Source of the DNA: a virus
IMG/VR virus record: IMGVR_UViG_3300025141_009936
Coordinates: 1 to 22,065 of that record
DNA: 22,065 bases
Reading direction: 5' to 3' (one strand)
In this document: positions 4,734-21,015 of the stretch, one piece after another
Position numbering within the stretch: position 1 is the stretch's first letter
Layout of the letters: every line of letters begins with the position of its first letter
Position numbers and translations under genes: made by a program
Notes under the pieces: generated by a model
What the model was told of the DNA's origin: nothing
Database searches by the model: none
The model's input: the letters and a program-made list of their open reading frames with translations, nothing else

Positions 4734-4794
4734 TTATATAGGTAATATAAACAATTTATTTAAAATAAAAAAATATTTGGTTAAAAGTTATTAA
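4734..4794 (-). promoter_or_regulatory. putative promoter of DNA polymerase, near-duplicate of the rnh upstream region
   Basis: The core, TTATATTACCTATATAA at 4734-4750, belongs to the recurring motif. Beyond it the similarity to 20722-20782 continues without gaps: from the GG at 4741 to 4794, 45 of 54 positions match by hand count, including a distal block reading TTAATAACTTTT on the minus strand. A spacing-conserved pair of blocks about 40 bp apart suggests a promoter plus an activator site. It overlaps the stop codon of the upstream gene. Confidence 0.6.
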
Positions 4795-6281
4795 CAATTT
4801 AGATCGTAGTATTGTCCAGTTTTAATTAGCATGTTTGCTTTAACCATTTCTTGCATTATGGCCCAGCTTTCTTTCCAATTGCTGTCAAGTTTTAATCCGT
4901 GGCCACCTTCAGATATAATAACCTTTAGTATTTGATCGTGTCTTATAGAAGTATTACCCAATGAAGACATTATTCTTTTTATTAAATCTATATTTGTTTG
5001 ATTTAAGGTTATTTTTTTAGTTTTAGCAGTTTTTATTTTTGAAACAATTGTGGAAGATGGTTCTTCTTTAATCATTTTAACTTTACAAGTTTCTCCTACC
5101 AATACTTCTCCCATTTCTGTTTGACTTAGTTCTTCCATTATAACTTCTCTAGGAATAATTGGTTGTGTTTTTACTTTTGGGGCAACTCTAGCAACTTTCC
5201 TCTTTTTTATTAAGTGAGGATTATTTTTAAGCCTACAGTAAACAGAGTACTGGCAAAGACTTACTTCAGTACCGTATGATTTTAGTTCATTTTGCTCATC
5301 TTCAAATATTTTAATACCATTTTCTGTTGTATAGTTCCACAATTCTTTATGAAACTGTATATCTAAAATTTCTTTTTGGTTTTCTCGTATCCAAACAACT
5401 CTTTCGCCTAAAGGTACTTCTTTTTTAGATAAACCTGGAAACATTAATTCTAGAGTTTCGCATGCGCCTGGACCTGGAGCTACAAACTTTGAATCGTGGC
5501 TAAAGTTTAATTTTGGATTAACAGAGTTAGAGGTTGAACAATGGTACCCATAATAGTCTCCTATCATGCTTTCACCGGTTAAGTATAAAAATCCTTCATA
5601 AAGATCTTTTGCTTCTCTCATCCCTGTCATAACTGTTTTTTTAGGATTATGTCCAGAAGGTCTATGTGTCCAAGATGCTATCCATTCGCAAACATTAGAC
5701 CATGTTCCTTTATCATCATGCCTAGCATTTCCTAGATACCATTCATTAACAAACCTTCTTCCAGCAGTTTGAATACTTGTGTGTAATTCAGTAGTACCCC
5801 ATATTTTTTGTTTATTTTCTTTAGCTGCAACTGCAATTTTTCTAAGTTTTTTGGTATATTCTCCAACTTCACCTGTTTCTTTAAAATCTTGTTGCTCTTT
5901 ACCTAGCAAAATAAAATCTATATGGGCTTTTTTATTATCGTCAATTCCAGTTAAAACATTGTGTACGCCCCTTGCTCCATAAAAGTGAGATATAATAGTA
6001 TTACCAATAACATTTTGCCATTTTAGTCCTGGAACAGTAACTATATTTTCCATAATATAGACCATCCTATCATCTGCCGTTATTGAAGGATGAAAATATT
6101 CTACTTCTAATCCAAGTGCTGGATCTGTTGGATTATATGATTCAACTATTCCTTTTTGGAAAAGCGTTCTCCTATTAACCATTTTGACAAAGTGCTCGTA
6201 GTCTTTTAATATATCCCAATCAAGGCTATTTCTTAATGCTTGATCTTTTGTACTACCTGCAGGTATTAAAATATTAGGCAT
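4791..6281 (-). CDS. DNA-base hypermodification family protein (aGPT pyrophosphorylase / hmdU-kinase helical domain-like)
   Basis: This 496-residue protein resembles the phage family named alpha-glutamyl/putrescinyl thymine pyrophosphorylase, which shares a HhH-DNA-glycosylase-like fold with the 5-hmdU DNA kinase helical domain. Family-like signatures appear in the expected order. An N-terminal helix carries NRR and a TDP turn (residues 37-54), and ADDR is at 69-72. A long helical segment follows, then IGDYYGYH (240-247), the APGPGA turn (268-273), and EVSLCQYSVYCR (339-350), matching the family's E-x-x-L-C-x-(F/Y)-x-x-Y motif. Known members act on hydroxymethylated pyrimidines in phage DNA. 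After residue 355 a Lys-rich linker leads to a C-terminal segment that looks like a winged helix. It overlaps the HAD gene by 8 bases and is third in the MIPS-HAD operon. The assignment rests on remembered family motifs, and the exact reaction is unknown. Confidence 0.6.
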   Translation of the reverse strand: MPNILIPAGSTKDQALRNSLDWDILKDYEHFVKMVNRRTLFQKGIVESYNPTDPALGLEVEYFHPSITADDRMVYIMENIVTVPGLKWQNVIGNTIISHFYGARGVHNVLTGIDDNKKAHIDFILLGKEQQDFKETGEVGEYTKKLRKIAVAAKENKQKIWGTTELHTSIQTAGRRFVNEWYLGNARHDDKGTWSNVCEWIASWTHRPSGHNPKKTVMTGMREAKDLYEGFLYLTGESMIGDYYGYHCSTSNSVNPKLNFSHDSKFVAPGPGACETLELMFPGLSKKEVPLGERVVWIRENQKEILDIQFHKELWNYTTENGIKIFEDEQNELKSYGTEVSLCQYSVYCRLKNNPHLIKKRKVARVAPKVKTQPIIPREVIMEELSQTEMGEVLVGETCKVKMIKEEPSSTIVSKIKTAKTKKITLNQTNIDLIKRIMSSLGNTSIRHDQILKVIISEGGHGLKLDSNWKESWAIMQEMVKANMLIKTGQYYDLNC

Positions 6282-6669
6282 GCAAATCCTCTAAATGTCT
6301 TACATTTTCTTTTTCAGTAAAATCATGTGAAACATGTATTACTTTTCCATTCCAACCTTTTTCTATTTCTTCTTTTTGTACAATGTCATCTTCAAAGAAA
6401 AACTGAACTATAATTTCTTCTTCATGCTTTAAAAACTTTAAAGTATTTGCCTTATGTATACCTGAAGTTTCTCTAGACTTTTCAGTAAATGGCAAGGGAT
6501 TAAAATAAACTTTATTTTTTATTCCATGTTTTAATAAAAATGCTTTAGTTTCTGGTTCTTCTTCATAGCTTCTGCCAGTTATTATTACATCGTTTGGGCC
6601 TGGTCTTACACCGCATATTCCATTTCCTAAATGGATTACCCCATCAATATCAAATCCGTTTACTTTCAT
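6274..6669 (-). CDS. small HAD-superfamily phosphatase
   Basis: This 131-residue protein has the HAD motifs in order. FDIDGV at residues 6-11 supplies the nucleophile Asp7 and the general acid Asp9. ITGRS at 30-34 is motif II, Lys73 is a candidate for motif III, and FEDD at 92-95 holds the metal-binding acids of motif IV. It has no large cap domain, so it is a compact phosphohydrolase that could take a small phosphorylated metabolite or a nucleotide or DNA-end phosphate. It starts two bases after the MIPS stop codon and overlaps the next gene by 8 bases, so the three are probably translationally coupled. An obvious candidate substrate is the inositol 3-phosphate made by its neighbour, but this is inferred from position only. 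Confidence 0.75.
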   Translation of the reverse strand: MKVNGFDIDGVIHLGNGICGVRPGPNDVIITGRSYEEEPETKAFLLKHGIKNKVYFNPLPFTEKSRETSGIHKANTLKFLKHEEEIIVQFFFEDDIVQKEEIEKGWNGKVIHVSHDFTEKENVRHLEDLHA

Positions 6670-6671
6670 AA

Positions 6672-7859
6672 TTATTTATTCATTTGTTTTGAAGTAGATT
6701 CAGTTAACCTTCTGTTTGCTAGTTCAGTGCATTCATAAACAGCGTCTGAAAACATCATTTGATCTGGCGGAGTTTTTTGAGTAAACGCAGATGGGCCTCT
6801 TAGTGCTCCTACTACTCCTAATTCTCTTGCAACTTTTAAGTATCTTATTGCGTCTATTACTACTCCTGCAGAATTTGGGCTGTCTTGAACACTTAATTGG
6901 GCGTCAAATAATACTGGAGAACCACCGAAACCTTCAAGCTCTAATCTAAAGTTTGCAACTTTATTATCTCCGTAAAAATGAATATATTCAGAGGGTCCTG
7001 CATGGAGGAAAGAATCTTCAGTAGAAATACCTCTAATTTCATTTTGAGCTCTAATAACATTTTCTTTAGAAATCTTTTTTGAAGCTAATCTAGTTTTGTC
7101 TTCCATATTTAAAAAGTCAGTATTACCACCAACATTTCTTTGTATGTGTGCTTTTACATGGTGACCTCTTTCAAATGCTAATTCTTGTAGCATCTGAGAT
7201 AAAATACTTGCCCCAAATTGAGAACGCATATCGTCTCCAACTAATGGTATACCAGCATCAATAAATCTTTGTTCCCAAGCTGGATCAGATGCAATAAATA
7301 CTGGGATACAATTTACAAAAGAAATTCCAGTTTCTAAACAAATTTCAGCCCAAAATTCTGTAGTTTTTTGCGAACCAACGGGTAAATAGTTAACAAGTAC
7401 TTCTACTTTTCTTGCTTTTAATTCTTTAATTATGGTATCTTTCCATTTTCTTTCTAATTTATTGGTCCAAGATACTCTATTCATATCTGTAGAATTTCTT
7501 AGCTTTTCAGAAACTAGAAATCTATTTTCTTCAGGATAATTATCCATTAAGCCCGCATAACCATCAATAACAGGGGCTTCAAATACTGGTGCTTTAGATT
7601 CAATAGTATCTACAATATTCCATGCACAGTTTGGTCGTTGTTGTAATGCTTCACCCAATGGTAAACCAGTCTTACGTTCGTCAATATCAAACCCTACTAC
7701 GAATTCAACATCTCCAGCTAAATAGCCTCCAATATCTGTTTTCATTACTCCTGTTGATGCTTTAGTATTTTCAGCATAATATTGTACGCCTTCTACAAGC
7801 GACTTTGCACAGTTTCCTGTTCCTATGATTCCTACTTTAATTTTGTTGTTTTTTGCCAT
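6672..7859 (-). CDS. ino1: myo-inositol-1(3)-phosphate synthase
   Basis: The enzyme converts glucose 6-phosphate to inositol 3-phosphate with tightly bound NAD. At 395 residues it matches the short prokaryotic form rather than the about 530-residue eukaryotic one. It has an N-terminal Rossmann motif (VGIIGTGNCAKS, residues 9-20), NYLPVGS, the GDDMRSQFGAS segment corresponding to GDDIKSQVGAT of mycobacterial Ino1, NVGGNTDFLNM, SKKISKENV, and the DSPNSAGVVIDAIR active-site segment. The start has an AAGGGGA Shine-Dalgarno sequence and a promoter-like motif upstream. It is an unusual metabolic gene for a phage. It heads a three-gene operon with a HAD phosphatase and a DNA-modification family protein. 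Alternative roles are supply of inositol for host lipids or osmolytes. Confidence 0.9.
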   Translation of the reverse strand: MAKNNKIKVGIIGTGNCAKSLVEGVQYYAENTKASTGVMKTDIGGYLAGDVEFVVGFDIDERKTGLPLGEALQQRPNCAWNIVDTIESKAPVFEAPVIDGYAGLMDNYPEENRFLVSEKLRNSTDMNRVSWTNKLERKWKDTIIKELKARKVEVLVNYLPVGSQKTTEFWAEICLETGISFVNCIPVFIASDPAWEQRFIDAGIPLVGDDMRSQFGASILSQMLQELAFERGHHVKAHIQRNVGGNTDFLNMEDKTRLASKKISKENVIRAQNEIRGISTEDSFLHAGPSEYIHFYGDNKVANFRLELEGFGGSPVLFDAQLSVQDSPNSAGVVIDAIRYLKVARELGVVGALRGPSAFTQKTPPDQMMFSDAVYECTELANRRLTESTSKQMNK

Positions 7860-7885
7860 TTTGATTCCCCTTTAATTTTTATTTG

Positions 7886-7900
7886 TTTTATATAATATAA
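7886..7900 (-). promoter_or_regulatory. putative promoter motif upstream of the MIPS operon
   Basis: TTATATTATATAAAA on the minus strand is a two-base-shorter variant of the recurring motif. It lies in the 101-bp gap at 7860-7960, one of the larger gaps in the window, and is followed 26 bases later by the MIPS start codon. Confidence 0.4.
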
Positions 7901-7960
7901 TAAATTTTTTTCAAATAGAAAAATTATTTCACTTTTAATTTCCCCATAATAAATACTAAG

Positions 7961-9031
7961 TTACGATAAAAAAACTATAGTTTTGTGATATTTATTTTCA
8001 CAATTATTTTCCATATCCCACCTATAAAATTCCCTGCTTAAATGTACGCTTTTTGGTTTTTCCATTGCGTCAAAAGATAGTTGTTGTTTTTCGTTTAATA
8101 TATTAGCTGGCCATGTTTTAGCTGTCCAACCATATAGATCACAAACAGAATCTATAGTTTTATTAAATATTTTTACAACTTCTGATCTTTGTTCCCACGT
8201 TCCATAAAATGGAGTATCTTTATAATATCCTGTTTTAGGTAATTTTCTACTTTCATCTTCAATTGGTAATGCATGTACTAATTCAATATTTTTTATATTT
8301 AAACACTTTAGTTGATCTGCCAAATATAATACCATAACCTCAGCGGCTTTAGCGTAGTCTTCTCTTCTACATAGGTGGTGTCTAATATCTATATTACCTG
8401 CGTAAAATGTTAAATGGGTTAAATTTTCAGCATTTATTCCAGATTTTTCTAGTATTTTATCTTTTAAACCGTCTCTTAATACAGAATAAAGGGTTAATCC
8501 GTCGTTACGGCTAGTCATATATCCTGGTTGATACATTGAAAAAGAGTGGCTATCACCAAAACATAATTTTGTGGTTTTTTCTACTATATCAAATTTTTCT
8601 GTTTTGTCAACTGCTTTTTGCAATTCTTCTAAATCTATTATGTGTGCTAAAGGAGATGTTGAACTATTTTTAAGTCTTTTTGAAACCATATCTACCAAAT
8701 CTGGCATTTCATGTTGTAAGGATAATAGTTTTCCTGGAAAACTTTCTAGCTGAATAAGTTTTTTACAAAAGTCATCGCCTAGGCCTCCAAAAAGATTAAG
8801 CGTGCCTTCATAACTTATACCCATATAGAGTATAATTACATCATAACTATTTAGTTTTTCTGATTTATCTAAAATTGTTACGTCAGTATACCCTGCGTTT
8901 ATACATTGGTTCATTACCTTGTGGGCCCATGCCCCGTTATGGTTTGATATTCTTTTTGATATTGCACCAGACAGTCCGTCAATACCTATTTTAATACCTT
9001 TATCTTCAATTTTATCTACTAATGTTATCAT
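7961..9031 (-). CDS. unknown protein with glycosyltransferase-like N-terminal half and SGNH-like C-terminal half
   Basis: I do not recognise this 356-residue protein as a whole. Residues 60-115 read as a Rossmann-type unit (YDVIILYMG, then NLFGGLG, then KLLSLQHEMPDL). It recalls the N-terminal domain of T4 beta-glucosyltransferase, where a strand is likewise followed by NFFGG and a second strand. From residue 157 it resembles SGNH/GDSL hydrolases: CFGDSHS (157-163) with a candidate nucleophile serine, AGNID (211-215) as the G-x-N-D block, and SVHLS (328-332) with a candidate catalytic His, although the usual Asp three residues before that His is Lys. It is the last gene of the hydroxymethylase operon, four bases after dUTPase. 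A role in adding or trimming a group on modified DNA fits the context but is inference. Confidence 0.4.
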   Translation of the reverse strand: MITLVDKIEDKGIKIGIDGLSGAISKRISNHNGAWAHKVMNQCINAGYTDVTILDKSEKLNSYDVIILYMGISYEGTLNLFGGLGDDFCKKLIQLESFPGKLLSLQHEMPDLVDMVSKRLKNSSTSPLAHIIDLEELQKAVDKTEKFDIVEKTTKLCFGDSHSFSMYQPGYMTSRNDGLTLYSVLRDGLKDKILEKSGINAENLTHLTFYAGNIDIRHHLCRREDYAKAAEVMVLYLADQLKCLNIKNIELVHALPIEDESRKLPKTGYYKDTPFYGTWEQRSEVVKIFNKTIDSVCDLYGWTAKTWPANILNEKQQLSFDAMEKPKSVHLSREFYRWDMENNCENKYHKTIVFLS

Positions 9032-9034
9032 ATT

Positions 9035-9475
9035 TTACTTTGTTCCTGATGAACCAAATCCTCCTTCTCCTCTTGTGGATACTGATTCATATAAATTATT
9101 TTCTTCTACTAATTCTATCGTTGGATCACCTAGTGGTAATAGTACAAACTGAACTATTTTATCTCCTGCTGCAATTGTTTGGTATTCCGCGCTTACGTTT
9201 GTTAAGTTTATATGTAGTTCTCCTTGATAACCACAATCAACTACACAAGCTCCTACATGTAATCCTTTTTTAGTAGCAACTCCAGATTTATTAAATGCTA
9301 TTAAAGCATATCCTTTAGGTACATTTACCTTTATCCCACTTGGAATAAAACATGATTCTCCAGGTGATAAGTCAGTTTTGCCAGTATAATCATTTGGTAT
9401 AAAAAAATCTACGCCTGCATCATTTGTGTTTGCTCTTGTTGGAGTCTTTACATCTTTAATTTTTGTTATTTTCAT
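9035..9475 (-). CDS. dut: dUTPase (dUTP pyrophosphatase)
   Basis: A trimeric-type dUTPase of 146 residues, hydrolysing dUTP to dUMP and pyrophosphate. The five family motifs are visible in order: NDAGVDFFIP (I), FNKSGVATKKGL (II, with K in place of the usual R before SG), VVDCGYQGEL (III, with the catalytic Asp), KIVQFVLLP (IV) and the C-terminal STRGEGGFGSSG arm (V). The enzyme keeps uracil out of DNA and supplies dUMP. It starts with an ATGA overlap on the preceding MazG-like gene and has a good AAGGAG Shine-Dalgarno sequence inside that gene. It lies in the hydroxymethylase operon, where T4-like phages often keep dCTP/dUTP hydrolysis. Confidence 0.95.
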   Translation of the reverse strand: MKITKIKDVKTPTRANTNDAGVDFFIPNDYTGKTDLSPGESCFIPSGIKVNVPKGYALIAFNKSGVATKKGLHVGACVVDCGYQGELHINLTNVSAEYQTIAAGDKIVQFVLLPLGDPTIELVEENNLYESVSTRGEGGFGSSGTK

Positions 9476-9753
9476 TTCTTTTTCTCCTTAATATAGTTAT
9501 CTAAACCGCCTAAATAAGCTACGCAGTCTAATAAGTTATCTTCTCTATAGTTATAAGAATGCCTAGATAGTTTTAAAGCTACCAATGCAGCATACATATC
9601 TTCAGCTTCAAAGTCTTTACCAGTCATACCACTAGCAATTTTTGCAGCACGTTCCATACCTTCGCTAAACGGACCGTATTTTCTTTCTTTTTCTTCTGAT
9701 CGATTATGAATTATTTCGTCAGCCCTTTTAAGTATTGATTCTTTCTTTTTCAT
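9472..9753 (-). CDS. MazG-like / DUF6378 small nucleotide-metabolism protein
   Basis: This 93-residue helical protein matches the phage DUF6378 pattern. A helix with N-R-x-x-E precedes K-Y-G (residues 25-27), followed by ALVALKLSR (56-64), then R-E-D-N-L-L-D-C-V-A-Y-L (70-81), whose spaced acidic residues resemble the metal-binding part of all-alpha NTP pyrophosphatases such as MazG. Catalytic activity is inferred and has not been shown for this family as far as I know. It overlaps the hydroxymethylase stop by ATGA and the dUTPase start by ATGA, so the three are tightly coupled. In T4 the dCTPase/dUTPase (gp56) feeds dCMP to the hydroxymethylase, and this protein may play the dCTPase part. 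Confidence 0.65.
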   Translation of the reverse strand: MKKKESILKRADEIIHNRSEEKERKYGPFSEGMERAAKIASGMTGKDFEAEDMYAALVALKLSRHSYNYREDNLLDCVAYLGGLDNYIKEKKK

Positions 9754-10607
9754 ATAAATAATTTTTTTATTTGTTTATTTGTAAAATCTACTAATTCTAA
9801 TTTTTCCATGCTTTTTTGTGGTAAAAATATTTTTTCTTTGTCTATATAATCTATAGTTATTTCAGGTTTTAGTATCCACTGCTCATTAAATTCAGGTAGA
9901 GCGTGTTTTAATGAATGCAAGGCTCGTACGCCTTCTTTAAGAATATTATCTCTCATTTTATAGTGCATTTCATATAAGTGTAAACTACCAGCAATATGAT
10001 AATAAGAACCTAGTTCTAGGTCTGGATATATTTCTCTTAATTCATTTAACATCAACTGTTGAAATAGAGCAAAATTAAATACATCATTACATAATCCAAA
10101 TATAATATCGTTACTACGCATATTAACACACAAGTGTAATTTATTATCTCGAATAAATACCTGTAAAAATTGCGTGCAAGGAATATCATGCCAATTTTTA
10201 GTTTTATGGTATGGCTGACCTATAACTATAGTACATCTTCTAGAATCTTTATCTTTTTTAAGTTCTGTTTTTATCCAATCCCATTGGTCACCTAATATAA
10301 ATGTACCGTAATTTGACTCTACTTCATTTTGGCCGTCCTGTATTCTTAACCAGATATTGGCACATTTACCAATATTATCTACTCTTGGGTTTCTAGACAG
10401 ATACCATAAAAATTCCATAACTGCATAATTATCATTAAATTTTCTAGATGGATAACCTATACCTAACTTTGTAGGGTCAGTTAATTCAAAAGATCTAAAA
10501 AGTAATTCTGTTTGATTGGTACCATTACTACTAACATCTTTACCAAAATAGGTAAGTGCTTGAAGTTCTGATAAAAATAGCTCATGTAGGCTGTCAAATT
10601 TATTCAT
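9750..10607 (-). CDS. thymidylate-synthase-fold enzyme, probably dCMP hydroxymethylase
   Basis: This 285-residue protein has the full thymidylate synthase layout: SNYG (98-101), the phosphate-binding DSRR (121-124), the catalytic Cys144 in DIPCTQ, VNMRSND (161-167) and GSLHLYEMHY (207-216). Aligned without gaps, the asparagine that reads uracil in ThyA (E. coli Asn177, in the LPFN motif) is Asp175 here, within GLCNDVF. T4 dCMP hydroxymethylase gp42 has the same RSNDxxFGxxND pattern with Asp179, and that Asn-to-Asp change is known to shift the preference from dUMP to dCMP. The likely product is therefore 5-hydroxymethyl-dCMP made with methylene-tetrahydrofolate. A dUMP-acting hydroxymethylase or methylase cannot be excluded. 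It heads an operon with MazG-like, dUTPase and glycosyltransferase/SGNH-like genes, after its own promoter-like motif. Confidence 0.7.
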   Translation of the reverse strand: MNKFDSLHELFLSELQALTYFGKDVSSNGTNQTELLFRSFELTDPTKLGIGYPSRKFNDNYAVMEFLWYLSRNPRVDNIGKCANIWLRIQDGQNEVESNYGTFILGDQWDWIKTELKKDKDSRRCTIVIGQPYHKTKNWHDIPCTQFLQVFIRDNKLHLCVNMRSNDIIFGLCNDVFNFALFQQLMLNELREIYPDLELGSYYHIAGSLHLYEMHYKMRDNILKEGVRALHSLKHALPEFNEQWILKPEITIDYIDKEKIFLPQKSMEKLELVDFTNKQIKKLFI

Positions 10608-10625
10608 ATAACCCTTTTTATTTTT

Positions 10626-10642
10626 TTATATAACTAATATAA
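10626..10642 (-). promoter_or_regulatory. putative promoter motif upstream of the hydroxymethylase operon
   Basis: TTATATTAGTTATATAA on the minus strand is one of the best copies of the recurring motif. The bases before it (TTTCAATTATTTTTA) also resemble those before the rnh copy. It lies in the 50-bp gap between the unknown 315-residue gene and the hydroxymethylase, whose ATG is 18 bases further on with a weak AGGG ribosome site. Confidence 0.5.
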
Positions 10643-10657
10643 TAAAAATAATTGAAA

Positions 10658-11605
10658 CTATAAAACTTTTTTATGATTATTTTCACTAATATTATAAAAT
10701 TCTTTTAATTCCATACACCTACTATATATAGTTTCTAGGCTTGTATTTTCTTTCCATTGTGAAAACTTACCAATTAAATCTATTCCAATTACTTTTTGTA
10801 TATCTAAATTATCTGATATTTGAGTTGTTTCAATGTAATTAATTATTTCGTTTCCATCAATGGCCTTGTCATATATATTTCTCATGCATTCATATATTAT
10901 AATATCTTTATTATATGTTTTTCTATAATACGGCTGTCCTGTGGCTAAAACCTGTTTATATATCCCTGATAATACTATATCCTCTTCTGATTGCAATTTG
11001 CAAACATATATAAATTTATCTGTGTGCGGTAAATTAAAACCCTCCAGGGAATAATTATCGATTATAGAATTTCTAAATTTTCCAGAAGAATCTAATTCAA
11101 CTAAGTCAACTAGATTTATAGTTGATATTAAGCGTTTAAAGGTTATTTCTAAGTCACTAAAGGATAACTTCTGAGGGTATTCTATACTTATTAATTGTTT
11201 ATCTATGCAGTTTTTATTTACACTTTCTTCTATTTTTTTAAATAATAATTCAAAACTATCTTCAGGGCCTAAACCTTGTATTGAAACATATTTTTGATAT
11301 TTATCTAATTGTTTAAGATAGCTAGTTTCCGTAGTTGTTTTACCTCTGGTGTATAGCGAATATAAATTAGAAAAGTTTTTAGGTTTTTTTGATGTAAATT
11401 TACCCCTATCATTATAAAATCTTTCATAATCTAAAATAGAGCAATCATTAAAAATATTTTTAACAAAATCAAATAGAGTAGGCGGAATAATTTCTTGCCC
11501 GTGGTTGCTATCCATTTTTTCCAATGTTTTATGTTTTATCAATGGTATATTTAAAACATATGAAACAAAATAAGATACTTGATTATTTCCTAATACATAT
11601 TCCAT
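10658..11605 (-). CDS. unknown protein, 315 residues
   Basis: I do not recognise this protein. It is soluble-looking, Asp/Asn/Lys-rich and without obvious membrane segments or signal peptide. The N-terminal part has hydrophobic strands and an Arg/Lys-rich middle (RGKFTSKKPKN near residue 67). The C-terminal part has a compact mixed region around residues 200-250 (KFIYVCKLQSEEDIV, then GQPYYRKTYN, then IYECMRNIYDKAIDG) that looks like a folded enzymatic or binding domain. It lies six bases after the giant adhesin-like gene, so the two are co-transcribed. In phages, a small protein after a fibre gene is often a chaperone or accessory for it; that is only positional reasoning here. The start at 11605 has no Shine-Dalgarno sequence. 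Confidence 0.8.
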   Translation of the reverse strand: MEYVLGNNQVSYFVSYVLNIPLIKHKTLEKMDSNHGQEIIPPTLFDFVKNIFNDCSILDYERFYNDRGKFTSKKPKNFSNLYSLYTRGKTTTETSYLKQLDKYQKYVSIQGLGPEDSFELLFKKIEESVNKNCIDKQLISIEYPQKLSFSDLEITFKRLISTINLVDLVELDSSGKFRNSIIDNYSLEGFNLPHTDKFIYVCKLQSEEDIVLSGIYKQVLATGQPYYRKTYNKDIIIYECMRNIYDKAIDGNEIINYIETTQISDNLDIQKVIGIDLIGKFSQWKENTSLETIYSRCMELKEFYNISENNHKKVL

Positions 11606-11611
11606 AGTTTA

Positions 11612-14600
11612 TTAATGTCTCATAAACATTACCGAGCAAGAAGTATAATAATTTTTTAAAATTGTTCCTTCATCTGTGGTTACAGATGCTGTAAGCTCAA
11701 ACATAACAGATTGAGAAATTATTTTTTCATTACCGGTATTACCAACATCTGGACTATAATACGGCTCGTGTCGTCCATCTCCTCCAGACTCAAATCCATC
11801 TGTATATCCAGATCCGCGGATTTGTTGAGTGTTAAATCCATTATATTGGTTTGTTAGTTTAGATTGAGAATACGCTCTCAATGCTGGAAAAAATATAGGC
11901 GCTTCTACAAAAGACTCTGATGTCATTGTATCTCCAAAGGATCCTGTTACTGAAGGACTTGGGGCCTGAATCTGGCCAGCTCCTGTATCTTTATATGTAT
12001 ACAATTCTCTTGCTTTCCACCTATAATTTAAGCCGTATCCTGCAGCATTTAGACCTGTCTTATAAGGAAAATAGGATATTAATTCATTTTCAGTAGTAAA
12101 GTTTTTTACCAATGTAGCCTGATTATCTACCTGTCGTGTCAAGTTTCTGTTATTTGGGTACCAGTTGTTTACAAAACCAGAGTCTAAAGTATACTTTAAC
12201 GGTGGATAACTTCTTGGTGGTGCGCCTTCTGTATGTCCAGTTTCGTGACTTGAGTTTCGAGCAGGAACTAATTGTGGAATTCCTTGTCTTATTGCTACTG
12301 AAGCTGTTAAATACGGGGCTGGCATGTTTAGTAACTCTTGATGGTGATACACTGTACTTGACCCAGTAAAACTTTTAATAACGGATCCTGACATAAGATT
12401 TAATGCTAAAATGCCCTTATAAACTGGAACTTGAACATTTAATGTTGGTTCAGTATGATAATGAGAATAATTGGTATCTAATATTGTTCCCATACCATTT
12501 TTAGTTGCATTTACTTCTGCAACTACTCCAGGATTAGTTACAAATCTAAGGTTTGAAACTTCTAGATGGTAGTATATTTTTCCTTGTGTTCCTATGTGAG
12601 CACAATTGCAATTTTCAATTGAACCAGACAGTCCAAAACTATAGAAATGTTTATTATATGAACCATAACCACTACCACTCGCTGCGGCGTAACTTGCAGA
12701 GTTTGATCCAGAAAAATAAAAAGCTGAAGAAGTAAATTCTCCAAGAGAAGGATTGTTTATTCCAACAGGTATATACTCTTTTGATTGAGAAAGAATACCT
12801 CCATTAGATTCACTATTTGCTAATCTAACGCCGTGTAATATTCCAGGACCATCTTTCCACTTAAACATCCTATTTGGATCACCAAAGTCTGGTGTTGGTA
12901 TTGGAAAACTACCTAATGGTCTATCCAATTGAAAAGATATTTCATCTCTAGTTACAGCGTTTGAAGCCCCATAATGAATAGAGGTTGTAAATGGAGGTAA
13001 TCCAAAAACATGCAATTCTTTTAGTGTATCTTGGTTTGACCTACCAAATTGATCTCCAATTGAAGTACCTGTAGCATTTCCATACGGACCAGGTAGTCCT
13101 GGTGGGTGAGAAGCTGAAATAGATTGAGTATATCTAATATCTCCAGATAGTAGGTGGGAATTTTCCGTTGACCAACCAAGTATATTAAACTTCGTTCCAG
13201 TTTCTTTCTTTTCCATAAATACGGTATCTGATCCTATGCATTGAATGCCATATTCTTCTCCTTCTATTGTTACAGTGCTTGAACTATTATTAGTCCATTT
13301 TAATTCAACCTTTGGTTCACAATTGGTTATACGCACTTCAGTTGTTGGAGATGTTGTATCAAAAATATGAGGGTGTCCTGAGTATGGGCCTGGAGGAGCA
13401 ACAATTGTCCAAAAACCATTGGATCCAGTTGCTTGAGCTTGAATAAATCCTTGTGGTCCTGTTGGTAAATAAGGAAACTCGCCATCATGATCTTCGCCAA
13501 TACAAATAAGTCTATCTGGTCCGGCGTTTGTGATGGTTTTTGCAACATATTGAATTGATGTATCTTTAAAAACACATGGACCATTAGATACCTCTAAACT
13601 CATTGTAAACCATCCAAAATTATTGTCATCATCGAGATCAGGGCTCATATGTATTTCAGTATCATAAGAATTTGTTAAATTTGCAATTGCGCCAAATATT
13701 GCAGGATTTGTCCATGCAGAGTTAGCGTCAGCATCATCTGTGATTACGTTCAAGGTATAGTCATTATATTGTAATATGGCCCCGTCAAGAGACCAAGTAG
13801 GTTGACTCACATCTGTATCTGTAAAGTTGTATATTGGAGATGAGCCTGCTAATGACATAGTTGGAAAACAATGCGTACCGTTTTTATCTGCAGAAAAGCC
13901 TGGATTAAGATATACGTCTGCGCACCCACTTATTGCTGGGCAACAGTTAGGCGTTAGCGTTGTATTTTCATATGGAAGTTCATCTGCATCATTAGTACAT
14001 TTTGGATTATCTGATGAGGCCGTAAAGCATAAACGTACTTTTCCTTTTATATGTGTAGTTGGGTCTAAAAGAAGAGTGCTAGGCCTATTGCTTTGTGTAT
14101 CATTAAATAAAAATGTCCCTTGACTATTTCCTACCAATTCCCACTCTATTGTGTCTGCATTAAAAAATGGGAGGTCTGATAACTTTACAGTTGTGCCAAA
14201 ATTTGATTGGCAAATATGATCCCCAAAACTTCTTGTTGGTTGTCTGTTCATGTTTAATTGAATACAACATGTGTCACTAGCTGCTATACCATATGAAGAC
14301 GTGCCCGCGCATACAATTGGAGCGGTATGCATACCCAAGTTTAAGAGCCACCAGATAGTAGTTGGGTGTCCTTGTTCAATTGGGTTAGTCATATATTCAT
14401 ACCAGGATGGGGTTGAAGCAGGACACCAAGACCCAGTATTTATAGCAACAGTATGTATTTTATTCCCCTCGAATGTCGAATCGTACTCAGAAGTAAAACC
14501 AGTAAATGCAGATGGATCTTTTACTATGTTTGTTGGTTTATACGCGTAGGAGCAACTTGGGTAAATATGGTTACCACTTCGACCATTAGTTGGATCTCTA

Positions 14601-16108
14601 GGTATCATGCTACCGGCGTATTGGTACTGGCTCCTATGCCAATTACCATGCAAGGAAGAACTATTTATTTTCCATGCAAGGCTATATGCAGCATTGCTAA
14701 ATGATGGGTGAGATTCGGTTAATGTTCCATAGTCAGCTGAATTTGAACAGAAATAGTGGAAGTGATTACCACTTGAGTAGTAGTATGTATTTCCTCCACC
14801 AAAAAGATCTGCATCACTTCCTGCGCAATAAATAAAGTAGACTCGGCCGGTTCCTGACCATCCTGCAGGGAATTTCAGATTCGAATGGTAGTAATGGAAA
14901 GCAATTGCATCATATGATGGTGAACTAAATGATCCTGAGTGATTGAATGCATTCTCTACTACTGCACTTTGTGAAACCAAGCTTGTATTCTCCCATGTTA
15001 TTGAACTTGTCCCAAATGTAAATGGAGTGGTTTGCATTGGTCCTAAATATCTTGTTTCAGTATAGCAAACGTTTAATGCAGTAGAAGACGTTACCTCAAA
15101 AATTGAAGCTGTTAATTGCTGTGTTCCTGTTCCAGACAAGCCATATGTAATTCCTTCACCACCACTAGCAGGATTAACTGTCCAAGATTTTATCGTGGTT
15201 CCTGCTCCTCCATCTTGTCCCATTCCTGACTCAGATCCTGATAGATTTATCTTTAGGGGGTCATAAAAAGATCCACTAAAACAGAAAGAAGCCGTTGAAC
15301 CACATAGAAAATCGTTTATACTTGCTGAAGGACTACATGAGCAATAATCATCAACAAAACCTCTAACAACAATTCCATTTTTTAATTGGTAGCTATTTGT
15401 TCCAGTTGTTAGAAAGTTTACCCCAATTGCGTTATTTTCTTCAAAACTCATTGATGTTATTTGAACATATTGATAGATGTCATTTTGCCAAGAAACTAGT
15501 TTGTATCCTATTCCTAATTGATTTGCTGGAACAAAACCATTTTGATTCGTCCATCCTCCTTGCCATTGTAATAACTCTTGGCCTGAAGTAACTGTGAAAT
15601 CAAAACCATCATCTGTAAATATATGGGTTGTTGGTAACCCTTGGTCACTTCCACTTGATACAAATATTTGTAAAAAATCAACACAAGCATTTTCCCTATC
15701 TTTTGATTGAACAAATTCAGGAATATTAAATAGACTACAAGATACTAGTCCGTTCGGCCTACTAAATACAGCTCTGTCGCCGGTGTCTGCGGATATTGCT
15801 GTTGATGTATCTACTTCAGCCCCATCAAAGAATTGCACAAATGATGTTTGTCCATTGGGAGTACTATCTGGAAAATTTATTTCCATTCCTTGTTGAACTG
15901 GAGCATTTGTGCCTGTGTCCATAACGGTATCAAGATTTGTCAGAAATGCAGTGTCACTTGAATATGGTCCATCTATTATTGTTGCATAGATAGGCTTAAA
16001 CCTCCATGGGTGTGGACCCAAGGAAGTCAGTACACTTTGACTCAAACTTGTTGAGTTAAAATCTCCATGATCTGTACTTATACTACAACTATTATCTGCT
16101 ATACACAT
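11612..16108 (-). CDS. giant adhesin or tail-fibre-like structural protein with PKD-like repeats
   Basis: This 1498-residue protein is beta-rich, with many Ser, Gly, Thr, Asn and aromatic residues and few charges, as expected of an extended fibre or surface protein. Several segments look like the Cys-containing PKD/Ig-like repeats of Bacteroidota surface proteins. The clearest begins TNAGPDRLICIGEDHDG (about 860-876), and related units lie near 620-720 and 730-850. Ser-Gly-rich stretches (FSGSFY near 277, FSGSNSASYAAASGSGYGS near 1132-1150) recall marine phage tail proteins. It has an unusually high Cys content (for example CSCSPS at 256 and NCCP at 721). There is no signal peptide and no transmembrane segment, so secretion by the host is unlikely and a virion location is more plausible. 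A receptor-binding fibre is the best guess. No Shine-Dalgarno sequence precedes the start. Confidence 0.65.
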   Translation of the reverse strand: MCIADNSCSISTDHGDFNSTSLSQSVLTSLGPHPWRFKPIYATIIDGPYSSDTAFLTNLDTVMDTGTNAPVQQGMEINFPDSTPNGQTSFVQFFDGAEVDTSTAISADTGDRAVFSRPNGLVSCSLFNIPEFVQSKDRENACVDFLQIFVSSGSDQGLPTTHIFTDDGFDFTVTSGQELLQWQGGWTNQNGFVPANQLGIGYKLVSWQNDIYQYVQITSMSFEENNAIGVNFLTTGTNSYQLKNGIVVRGFVDDYCSCSPSASINDFLCGSTASFCFSGSFYDPLKINLSGSESGMGQDGGAGTTIKSWTVNPASGGEGITYGLSGTGTQQLTASIFEVTSSTALNVCYTETRYLGPMQTTPFTFGTSSITWENTSLVSQSAVVENAFNHSGSFSSPSYDAIAFHYYHSNLKFPAGWSGTGRVYFIYCAGSDADLFGGGNTYYYSSGNHFHYFCSNSADYGTLTESHPSFSNAAYSLAWKINSSSLHGNWHRSQYQYAGSMIPRDPTNGRSGNHIYPSCSYAYKPTNIVKDPSAFTGFTSEYDSTFEGNKIHTVAINTGSWCPASTPSWYEYMTNPIEQGHPTTIWWLLNLGMHTAPIVCAGTSSYGIAASDTCCIQLNMNRQPTRSFGDHICQSNFGTTVKLSDLPFFNADTIEWELVGNSQGTFLFNDTQSNRPSTLLLDPTTHIKGKVRLCFTASSDNPKCTNDADELPYENTTLTPNCCPAISGCADVYLNPGFSADKNGTHCFPTMSLAGSSPIYNFTDTDVSQPTWSLDGAILQYNDYTLNVITDDADANSAWTNPAIFGAIANLTNSYDTEIHMSPDLDDDNNFGWFTMSLEVSNGPCVFKDTSIQYVAKTITNAGPDRLICIGEDHDGEFPYLPTGPQGFIQAQATGSNGFWTIVAPPGPYSGHPHIFDTTSPTTEVRITNCEPKVELKWTNNSSSTVTIEGEEYGIQCIGSDTVFMEKKETGTKFNILGWSTENSHLLSGDIRYTQSISASHPPGLPGPYGNATGTSIGDQFGRSNQDTLKELHVFGLPPFTTSIHYGASNAVTRDEISFQLDRPLGSFPIPTPDFGDPNRMFKWKDGPGILHGVRLANSESNGGILSQSKEYIPVGINNPSLGEFTSSAFYFSGSNSASYAAASGSGYGSYNKHFYSFGLSGSIENCNCAHIGTQGKIYYHLEVSNLRFVTNPGVVAEVNATKNGMGTILDTNYSHYHTEPTLNVQVPVYKGILALNLMSGSVIKSFTGSSTVYHHQELLNMPAPYLTASVAIRQGIPQLVPARNSSHETGHTEGAPPRSYPPLKYTLDSGFVNNWYPNNRNLTRQVDNQATLVKNFTTENELISYFPYKTGLNAAGYGLNYRWKARELYTYKDTGAGQIQAPSPSVTGSFGDTMTSESFVEAPIFFPALRAYSQSKLTNQYNGFNTQQIRGSGYTDGFESGGDGRHEPYYSPDVGNTGNEKIISQSVMFELTASVTTDEGTILKNYYTSCSVMFMRH

Positions 16109-20782: not shown

Positions 20783-20789
20783 AAAATTG

Positions 20790-21015
<226 letters not shown>

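Follow-up and report, generated by a model that had tools for sequence, protein, structure and literature searches.

Gene content of a viral cassette points to hypermodification of cytosine with inositol

Seven consecutive genes in a 22,065-nt stretch of viral DNA (the window), all on the minus strand, fairly likely encode a pathway that makes cytosine hypermodified with inositol. The upper block comprises genes for a thymidylate synthase (TS)-fold enzyme (9750..10607, 285 aa), a DUF6378 protein (9472..9753, 93 aa), a dUTPase (9035..9475, 146 aa) and a two-domain SGNH protein whose N-terminus resembles T4 beta-glucosyltransferase (BGT) (7961..9031, 356 aa). A 101-nt intergenic gap between the SGNH and MIPS genes (7860..7960) separates it from genes for a myo-inositol-phosphate synthase (MIPS; 6672..7859, 395 aa), a HAD phosphatase (6274..6669, 131 aa) and a PF18723 (HMUDK_hel) protein (4791..6281, 496 aa). 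Spacing within the blocks is tight: the TS-fold and DUF6378 genes overlap by 4 nt (9750–9753), the DUF6378 and dUTPase genes by 4 nt (9472–9475) and the HAD and PF18723 genes by 8 nt (6274–6281), while gaps of 3 and 2 nt separate dUTPase from SGNH and MIPS from HAD. No consensus promoter lies wholly within the 101-nt gap, and promoter-like matches around it are about as numerous as in shuffled sequence. The seven genes described in the initial annotation are all present, and profile searches placed five of them in Pfam families. About 100 other viral contigs carry the cassette with their genes rearranged, which rules out random co-localisation of the seven genes.

The putative MIPS matches Inos-1-P_synth (PF01658, 80 bits), TIGR03450 (299 bits), PDB entry 1gr0 (E 1.5e-80) and the phage family phrog_33138 (8e-143). 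It has both the Inos-1-P_synth domain and the Rossmann domain, and the core is conserved across phage MIPS proteins. In the PDB search the nearest solved enzyme is the mycothiol-type inositol-3-phosphate synthase of Mycobacterium tuberculosis (Ino1), to which both domains align; the match to the cyclitol-phosphate synthase 6k96 is weaker. The window protein scores far below the NCBIfam cut-off (299 versus 638 bits) and is therefore not the mycothiol equivalog. In the HAD protein, the DxD, T/S, K and DD motifs are all invariant among 19 homologues. Its closest PHROG (phrog_415, 3.1e-8) carries the name polynucleotide kinase, which was not accepted as its function, and a PDB sequence search with the HAD profile gave no match. 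In an independent HAD scan, MIPS was found in 77 of 80 loci, and the median gap between the two genes in related cassettes is 4 nt. This near-restriction to MIPS, abutting it beside three base chemistries, is in keeping with a phosphatase that acts on what MIPS makes, and HAD is predicted to be a dedicated partner of MIPS. Its absence near MIPS in 11 of 106 groups of the hydroxymethylcytosine (hmC) class, some of them truncated, counts against the proposed pathway.

That the genes form one pathway, as had been proposed, gains support from a near-obligate linkage: of 104 loci encoding the PF18723 helical protein in viral contigs, 102 also contain MIPS. One of the two exceptions is cut by a contig edge and the other is phage 44RR, in which a sugar-type Na+ symporter adjoins the locus. 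Of 35 groups that the PF18723 scan added to those of the MIPS scan, 34 likewise contain MIPS. Conversely, a DNA-modification gene lies within five ORFs in all 92 MIPS groups with 2.5 kb of sequence on both sides. MIPS, usually with HAD, occurs in three settings. In addition to the hmC/SGNH/PF18723 class, 28 groups, including Caulobacter phage Cr30, hold MIPS(-HAD) beside ADDT, mostly with a TET/JBP oxygenase and a P-loop kinase; these resemble the phage TET/JBP hypermodification systems, from which the window differs in that its hydroxymethyl base would come from the TS-fold enzyme. A further 12 groups, including Menderavirus, hold MIPS(-HAD) among 7-deazaguanine genes (FolE, QueC/E, TGT/DpdA), a system with a guanine analogue as base and with none of its genes in the window. 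MIPS was not found together with the alternative c33/PLP gene set (0 of 54). On the MIPS tree, 13 switches between the three settings are needed. Together with the linkage, this suggests that MIPS-HAD is a portable module supplying inositol to DNA-modification systems. The initial annotation had held that MIPS-HAD pairs found regularly in phages without a hydroxymethylase or aGPT-family gene would refute its pathway. Formally, 12 of 150 groups are of this kind; these carry the 7-deazaguanine set and so fit a broader reading. On that reading, towards which the evidence leans somewhat, myo-inositol, often O-methylated, would be a widespread DNA adduct, with a MIPS-HAD module common to three unrelated base chemistries (SGNH/PF18723 on hmC, ADDT on a hydroxymethylpyrimidine made by TET, and 7-deazaguanine) and with import of the cyclitol by a Na+ symporter in some phages.

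Several other fates of the MIPS product were considered. The phosphate might be retained, for example in a phosphodiester to hmC, with HAD acting on DNA ends or on a phosphorylated intermediate; the product of MIPS is itself phosphorylated, some MIPS loci lack HAD, and the PHROG name of HAD would agree, but the confinement of HAD to MIPS loci beside three base chemistries, a few nucleotides away, makes this unlikely. Conversion before attachment to another cyclitol, or to an oxidised or aminated inositol, is rather improbable. The relationship to 6k96 and the variable tailoring genes, such as an FkbM-type methyltransferase in 55 of 106 hmC-class groups, would allow it; against it, the window cassette contains no dehydrogenase or aminotransferase, and its MIPS is nearest the M. 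tuberculosis enzyme. An ordinary metabolic role for MIPS and HAD, with the inositol serving as a compatible solute or in lipids or the cell surface and the gene neighbourhood an accident of operon layout, is very improbable given the proximity to DNA-modification genes throughout the 92 groups, among which no distant phage MIPS gene was seen, and the repeated switching between three different gene sets; metabolic genes do, however, occur in phages, and MIPS of Menderavirus Ps15 has been noted merely as a bacteria-like gene (PMC9025141).

The protein annotated initially as glycosyltransferase/SGNH-like has features of both, divided between two domains. Residues 13–108 match an alignment of T4 BGT (hhalign, probability 95.9, E 5e-9), reaching BGT residue 100, and so cover its N-terminal acceptor domain. 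The C-terminal UDP-glucose domain of BGT has no evident counterpart: this part of the AlphaFold model (pLDDT 93.7) matches SGNH/GDSL hydrolases in Foldseek (3p94, E 8e-5, probability 1.0). GDSH, GN-D-RHH and H motifs are invariant in the homologue alignment, and the fold and the conserved GDS, GN and His blocks are those of an SGNH/GDSL hydrolase. A PDB sequence search with the SGNH profile gave only a chance-level match. The protein is a homologue of the acceptor half of T4 BGT at its N-terminus, joined to an SGNH-hydrolase fold.

For the last gene, a combined pyrophosphorylase/hmdU-kinase-helical assignment had been suggested. The helical domain is present (HMUDK_hel, 38 bits against a cut-off of 25, aa 193–353), as a partial match to profile positions 137–276. 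The kinase part was rejected: no Pfam kinase match and no Walker A motif were found in the sequence, so the protein is not classed as a 5-hmdU DNA kinase. Its model (pLDDT 84) matches phage 31 ORF233c (3e-13), a phiRSL1 PF18723 protein (4.8e-5) and an ADDT-domain protein (0.044) in BFVD. Profile comparison revealed no sequence-level homology to ADDT or c33; the weak fold match suggests that the PF18723 protein and ADDT may belong to a common superfamily. A Foldseek search of the PDB with the model gave nothing significant, the top matches being short and mostly winged-helix, and a PDB sequence search with the profile gave no match. In the window's clade the protein has an additional C-terminal winged-helix-like domain. 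We propose that it is a DNA-base transferase.

The TS-fold enzyme (Thymidylat_synt, 60.8 bits in the Pfam profile search) has as its best PDB matches a CMP 5-hydroxymethylase (5jnh, 8.6e-22) and T4 gp42 (1b49, 1.3e-21). The catalytic Cys is retained, and an Asp occupies the position of E. coli TS N177 and gp42 D179, which is linked to dCMP specificity; PDB chain 6l18 has Asn in this column. Large related phages carry canonical thymidylate synthases separately, alongside the dCMP-type enzyme. The Asp and the best matches indicate an enzyme of the dCMP hydroxymethylase type, and the base is probably hydroxymethylcytosine; the hydroxymethylpyrimidine of the initial annotation is narrowed from a generic pyrimidine to cytosine. 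The product may be hm-dCMP or 5-hydroxy-dCMP; D-type TS homologues in Mosigvirus relatives are reported to make the latter (PMC13390438), which counts against the hmC step. Hydroxymethyluracil, the base of the known PF18723/ADDT systems whose 5-hmdU kinases gave PF18723 its name, is rejected as highly improbable on the specificity-position Asp, the PDB matches and the BGT-like domain, which belongs to the hmC glucosyltransferase family.

Two accompanying genes may act on nucleotide pools. The DUF6378 protein (PF19905, 40.5 bits), MazG-like in the initial annotation and present in 60 of 106 MIPS and 47 of 67 non-MIPS SGNH-class groups, is the only pool gene widespread in the cassette and a possible nucleotide-pool enzyme; the PHROG name phosphofructokinase was not accepted as its function. 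The dUTPase (PF00692, 65.2 bits; TIGR00576, 96.5 bits) is mostly limited to the window's clade.

In 44RR and its relatives, homologues of the SGNH and PF18723 proteins are fused and adjoin a symporter of the vSGLT class; the fusion and the close symporter occur in the same 19 records. In this group the symporter replaces MIPS. With the MIPS linkage and the repeated tree switching, the replacement supports inositol or a derivative as the putative adduct. The annotation of the 44RR symporter as a galactose or glucose transporter counts against inositol. Phage 44RR has gp42 and lacks known glucosyltransferase genes (PMC2993671).

Gene content, fold or family membership, key residues, and the patterns of linkage and replacement were observed; from these we infer the reactions, their order, the choice of transferase (SGNH or PF18723 protein) and the activation of hmC. 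The TS-fold enzyme would convert dCMP to 5-hydroxymethyl-dCMP, which would be incorporated at replication, with dUTPase and perhaps DUF6378 shaping the nucleotide pools. MIPS would convert host glucose-6-phosphate to inositol phosphate, and HAD would release free myo-inositol. The SGNH protein would bind 5hmC in DNA through its T4-BGT-like domain and, with the PF18723 protein, couple inositol to the 5-hydroxymethyl group; the inositol may then be O-methylated by the FkbM-type methyltransferase that half of the related cassettes carry. The hmC class yielded no kinase, which counts against this scheme as regards hmC activation, and no TET was found in the related hmC-class phages tested. The scheme resembles T4 hmC glucosylation in its dCMP-type enzyme with the D179 residue, its BGT-homologous domain and its nearby pool enzymes, and differs in the SGNH part in place of an evident glycosyltransferase donor domain, the proposed inositol supply and the PF18723 protein. 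With the thymidine hypermodification of ViI, M6 and phiW-14 (5-hmdU DNA kinase, ADDT) it shares the PF18723 domain, the principle of attaching a group to the 5-hydroxymethylpyrimidines of DNA and, in sister MIPS cassettes, ADDT. Unlike those systems, the window has a dCMP-type rather than a dUMP-type enzyme, no P-loop kinase, and a supply of inositol instead of amino acids.

To our knowledge, inositol is not known as a DNA modification. A literature search, the broader part of which was by titles and abstracts so that an earlier mention is possible, found nothing tying inositol or MIPS to phage DNA modification. The inositol reading can be tested in the cultured phages Cr30, Mendera and 44RR; since inositol and glucose are isomers, inositol-hmC and glucosyl-hmC would be isobaric and mass alone could not separate them. 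Possible roles emerge for two protein families so far unexplained, SGNH/BGT-N and PF18723-only, and a decoration can be proposed for the hmC of the Aeromonas phages 44RR and 31, whose genomes have gp42 but no known glucosyltransferase genes. If the reading is correct, the unexplained MIPS genes of cultured phages (Menderavirus, Cr30) would gain a function, and a cyclitol on DNA would add a chemically new class to the known base modifications.

The seven minus-strand ORFs of the initial annotation (4791-10607) are present in this 22,065-base viral contig fragment as claimed, and encode a TS-fold enzyme, a DUF6378 protein, dUTPase, an SGNH protein, myo-inositol-phosphate synthase (MIPS), a HAD phosphatase and a PF18723 protein. 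A 101-nt gap separates the first block (TS to SGNH) from the second (MIPS to PF18723), and inside either block neighbouring genes overlap or almost touch. The window also carries a phage-encoded GroEL and GroES pair (286-2227) and a minus-strand tRNA-Ala (TGC; 20789-20863). Genes for proteins of 1498 and 315 aa (11612-16108 and 10658-11605), neither with a Pfam match, separate the RNR gene from the cassette.

The cassette almost certainly modifies DNA bases, and the base concerned is very probably cytosine. The closest PDB entries to the TS-fold enzyme are CMP 5-hydroxymethylase (8.6e-22) and T4 gp42, the dCMP hydroxymethylase (1.3e-21), with thymidylate synthases far behind. It has Asp at the position of TS Asn177 and gp42 Asp179, as do all examined divergent-type copies from related cassette phages, including the second TS of Aeromonas phage 44RR; several of these phages also encode canonical Asn-type thymidylate synthases. 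The PDB ranking, the shared Asp and the coexisting Asn-type enzymes suggest that the substrate is probably dCMP. Mosigvirus homologues are reported to yield 5-hydroxy-dCMP instead (PMC13390438), so the product may be either the hydroxymethyl or the hydroxy form.

Viral contigs were scanned separately with MIPS, SGNH, PF18723 and HAD queries, and loci with identical marker proteins were merged into groups before counting; each scan comprises the 80 best matches, and the counts sample sequences close to the seeds rather than giving a full census. Co-occurrence of MIPS and a PF18723-family gene in other phages, part of a check proposed in the initial annotation, is found in 102 of 104 groups with a PF18723 protein among the matches listed, the exceptions being L240, a locus at a contig edge, and 44RR. 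In the PF18723 scan, MIPS is present in 34/35 listed groups that were new relative to the MIPS scan. In the independent HAD scan, 77 of the best 80 matches have MIPS in the same locus; of the remaining three, two are on contigs in which another locus showed MIPS. Among the matches listed, 67 SGNH-class groups lack MIPS; HAD occurs in none of these, and c33, a protein of ~400 aa with no family, in 54. An alternative cassette in 54 listed groups (e.g. L093:9917-14222 and L103:7253-11005) comprises the SGNH gene, c33 and a PLP-dependent enzyme, often with c41; it replaces MIPS/HAD/PF18723, and c33 and MIPS are mutually exclusive among the groups listed.

A second MIPS scan, seeded with the protein of Stenotrophomonas phage Mendera, revealed two further MIPS(-HAD) settings. 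Among the matches listed, 106 of 150 MIPS groups have the SGNH/PF18723 setting; 28 have ADDT, 21 of them with a TET/JBP oxygenase, 24 with a P-loop kinase and at least 26 with HAD; and 12 have 7-deazaguanine genes of FolE/QueC/QueE/TGT type (HAD in at least seven). The HAD counts are lower bounds, because the profile tally missed Mendera's own copy, which BLAST detects. Four groups have no DNA-modification set in view: MIPS is at or near a contig end in L294, L335 and L346, and L141 is a 4.3-kb contig. In all 92 listed groups where the contig extends 2.5 kb or more on both sides of MIPS, a DNA-modification gene lies within five ORFs, and settings are never mixed within any of the 150. In Caulobacter phage Cr30, one of the ADDT groups, a gene with the annotation 'SNF2 DNA repair protein' (L003:3700-5028) matches TET/JBP oxygenase. 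On a maximum-likelihood tree built from 64 MIPS proteins, with a few long branches uncertain, 13 setting changes are required (minimum 2; shuffles 23.6); judged from this phylogeny, the MIPS gene has therefore moved repeatedly between settings.

The label pyrophosphorylase/hmdU-kinase-helical, originally given to the 496-aa PF18723 protein (4791..6281), holds for its helical part (HMUDK_hel, 38 bits; cut-off 25) but not for the kinase, as the protein lacks a kinase domain. No solved structure matches its model (pLDDT 84) significantly; of predicted viral structures, ORF233c of Aeromonas phage 31 and a further PF18723 protein match it, and an ADDT-domain protein does so weakly. Members of the window's clade have a winged-helix-like C-terminal domain (~aa 420-496; 4791-5022) that the shorter homologues lack.

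The 356-aa SGNH protein (7961..9031) is modelled confidently (pLDDT 93.7, pTM 0.91) and aligns with SGNH/GDSL hydrolases across ~200 residues (3p94, E 8e-5, probability 1.0); the motifs GDSH, GN-D-RHH and a late His are invariant. Residues 13-108 align with T4 beta-glucosyltransferase over its N-terminal 100 residues (hhalign 95.9%, E 5e-9), an alignment also checked from the single sequence. The protein would combine a hydroxymethylcytosine (hmC)-DNA-binding module and an SGNH catalytic domain in one chain. SGNH and PF18723 homologues are fused into a single polypeptide in 44RR, 31 and relatives, and so very likely work together.

The SGNH protein occurs with different suppliers in different cassettes: MIPS/HAD/PF18723 in some, c33 and the PLP enzyme in others, CofD and nucleotidyltransferase-like genes together with a T4-BGT relative in L104 and, in Aeromonas phage 25, UDP-galactopyranose mutase. 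It is therefore likely to be general to hmC-type modification and not inositol-specific. The L104 row (9833-15525: SGNH, dCMP-type TS, cupin-like, T4-BGT relative, CofD, IspD-like nucleotidyltransferase) may represent a new donor chemistry in the glycosylation of hmC. The mutase adjoins the SGNH cassette at L123:2755-6026 (phage 25) and L096:14470-16750, which suggests that the hmC of phage 25 carries a furanose sugar. A PF00145 C5-cytosine methyltransferase-like gene lies near the SGNH gene (L256:5635-6822, L212:3421-4671; 19 MIPS groups among the matches listed), and one sub-clade has a cysteine synthase-like gene between SGNH and MIPS (L067:9002-9880).

The PF18723-containing fusion occurs in 19 Aeromonas phage records, the same 19 that have a close (81% or more) sodium symporter directly upstream; these are close relatives and so represent few independent events. 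A further 18 records contain SSF matches of greater distance. No MIPS match is found in the Aeromonas phages carrying fusion and symporter, and 44RR-type phages have gp42 and lack glucosyltransferase homologues (PMC2993671). The nearest structures to the 44RR-type symporter are vSGLT and SGLT, and database records name it a galactose or glucose transporter. It may import inositol, replacing synthesis.

Inositol or a direct derivative is the probable adduct; in the route towards which we lean, the PF18723/SGNH pair would couple free inositol to hmC. An FkbM-type methyltransferase gene, absent from the window, is present in 55 of the 106 listed SGNH/PF18723 groups with MIPS, and there O-methyl-inositol is a natural guess. 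In the part of the literature covered by a limited search, inositol is not named as a DNA adduct; the MIPS of the Menderavirus Ps15 was noted merely as a bacteria-like gene (PMC9025141). Base hypermodification in phage DNA is already known as a kind of system; the SGNH/BGT-N protein would be new, as would the inositol supply and its use across three chemistries.
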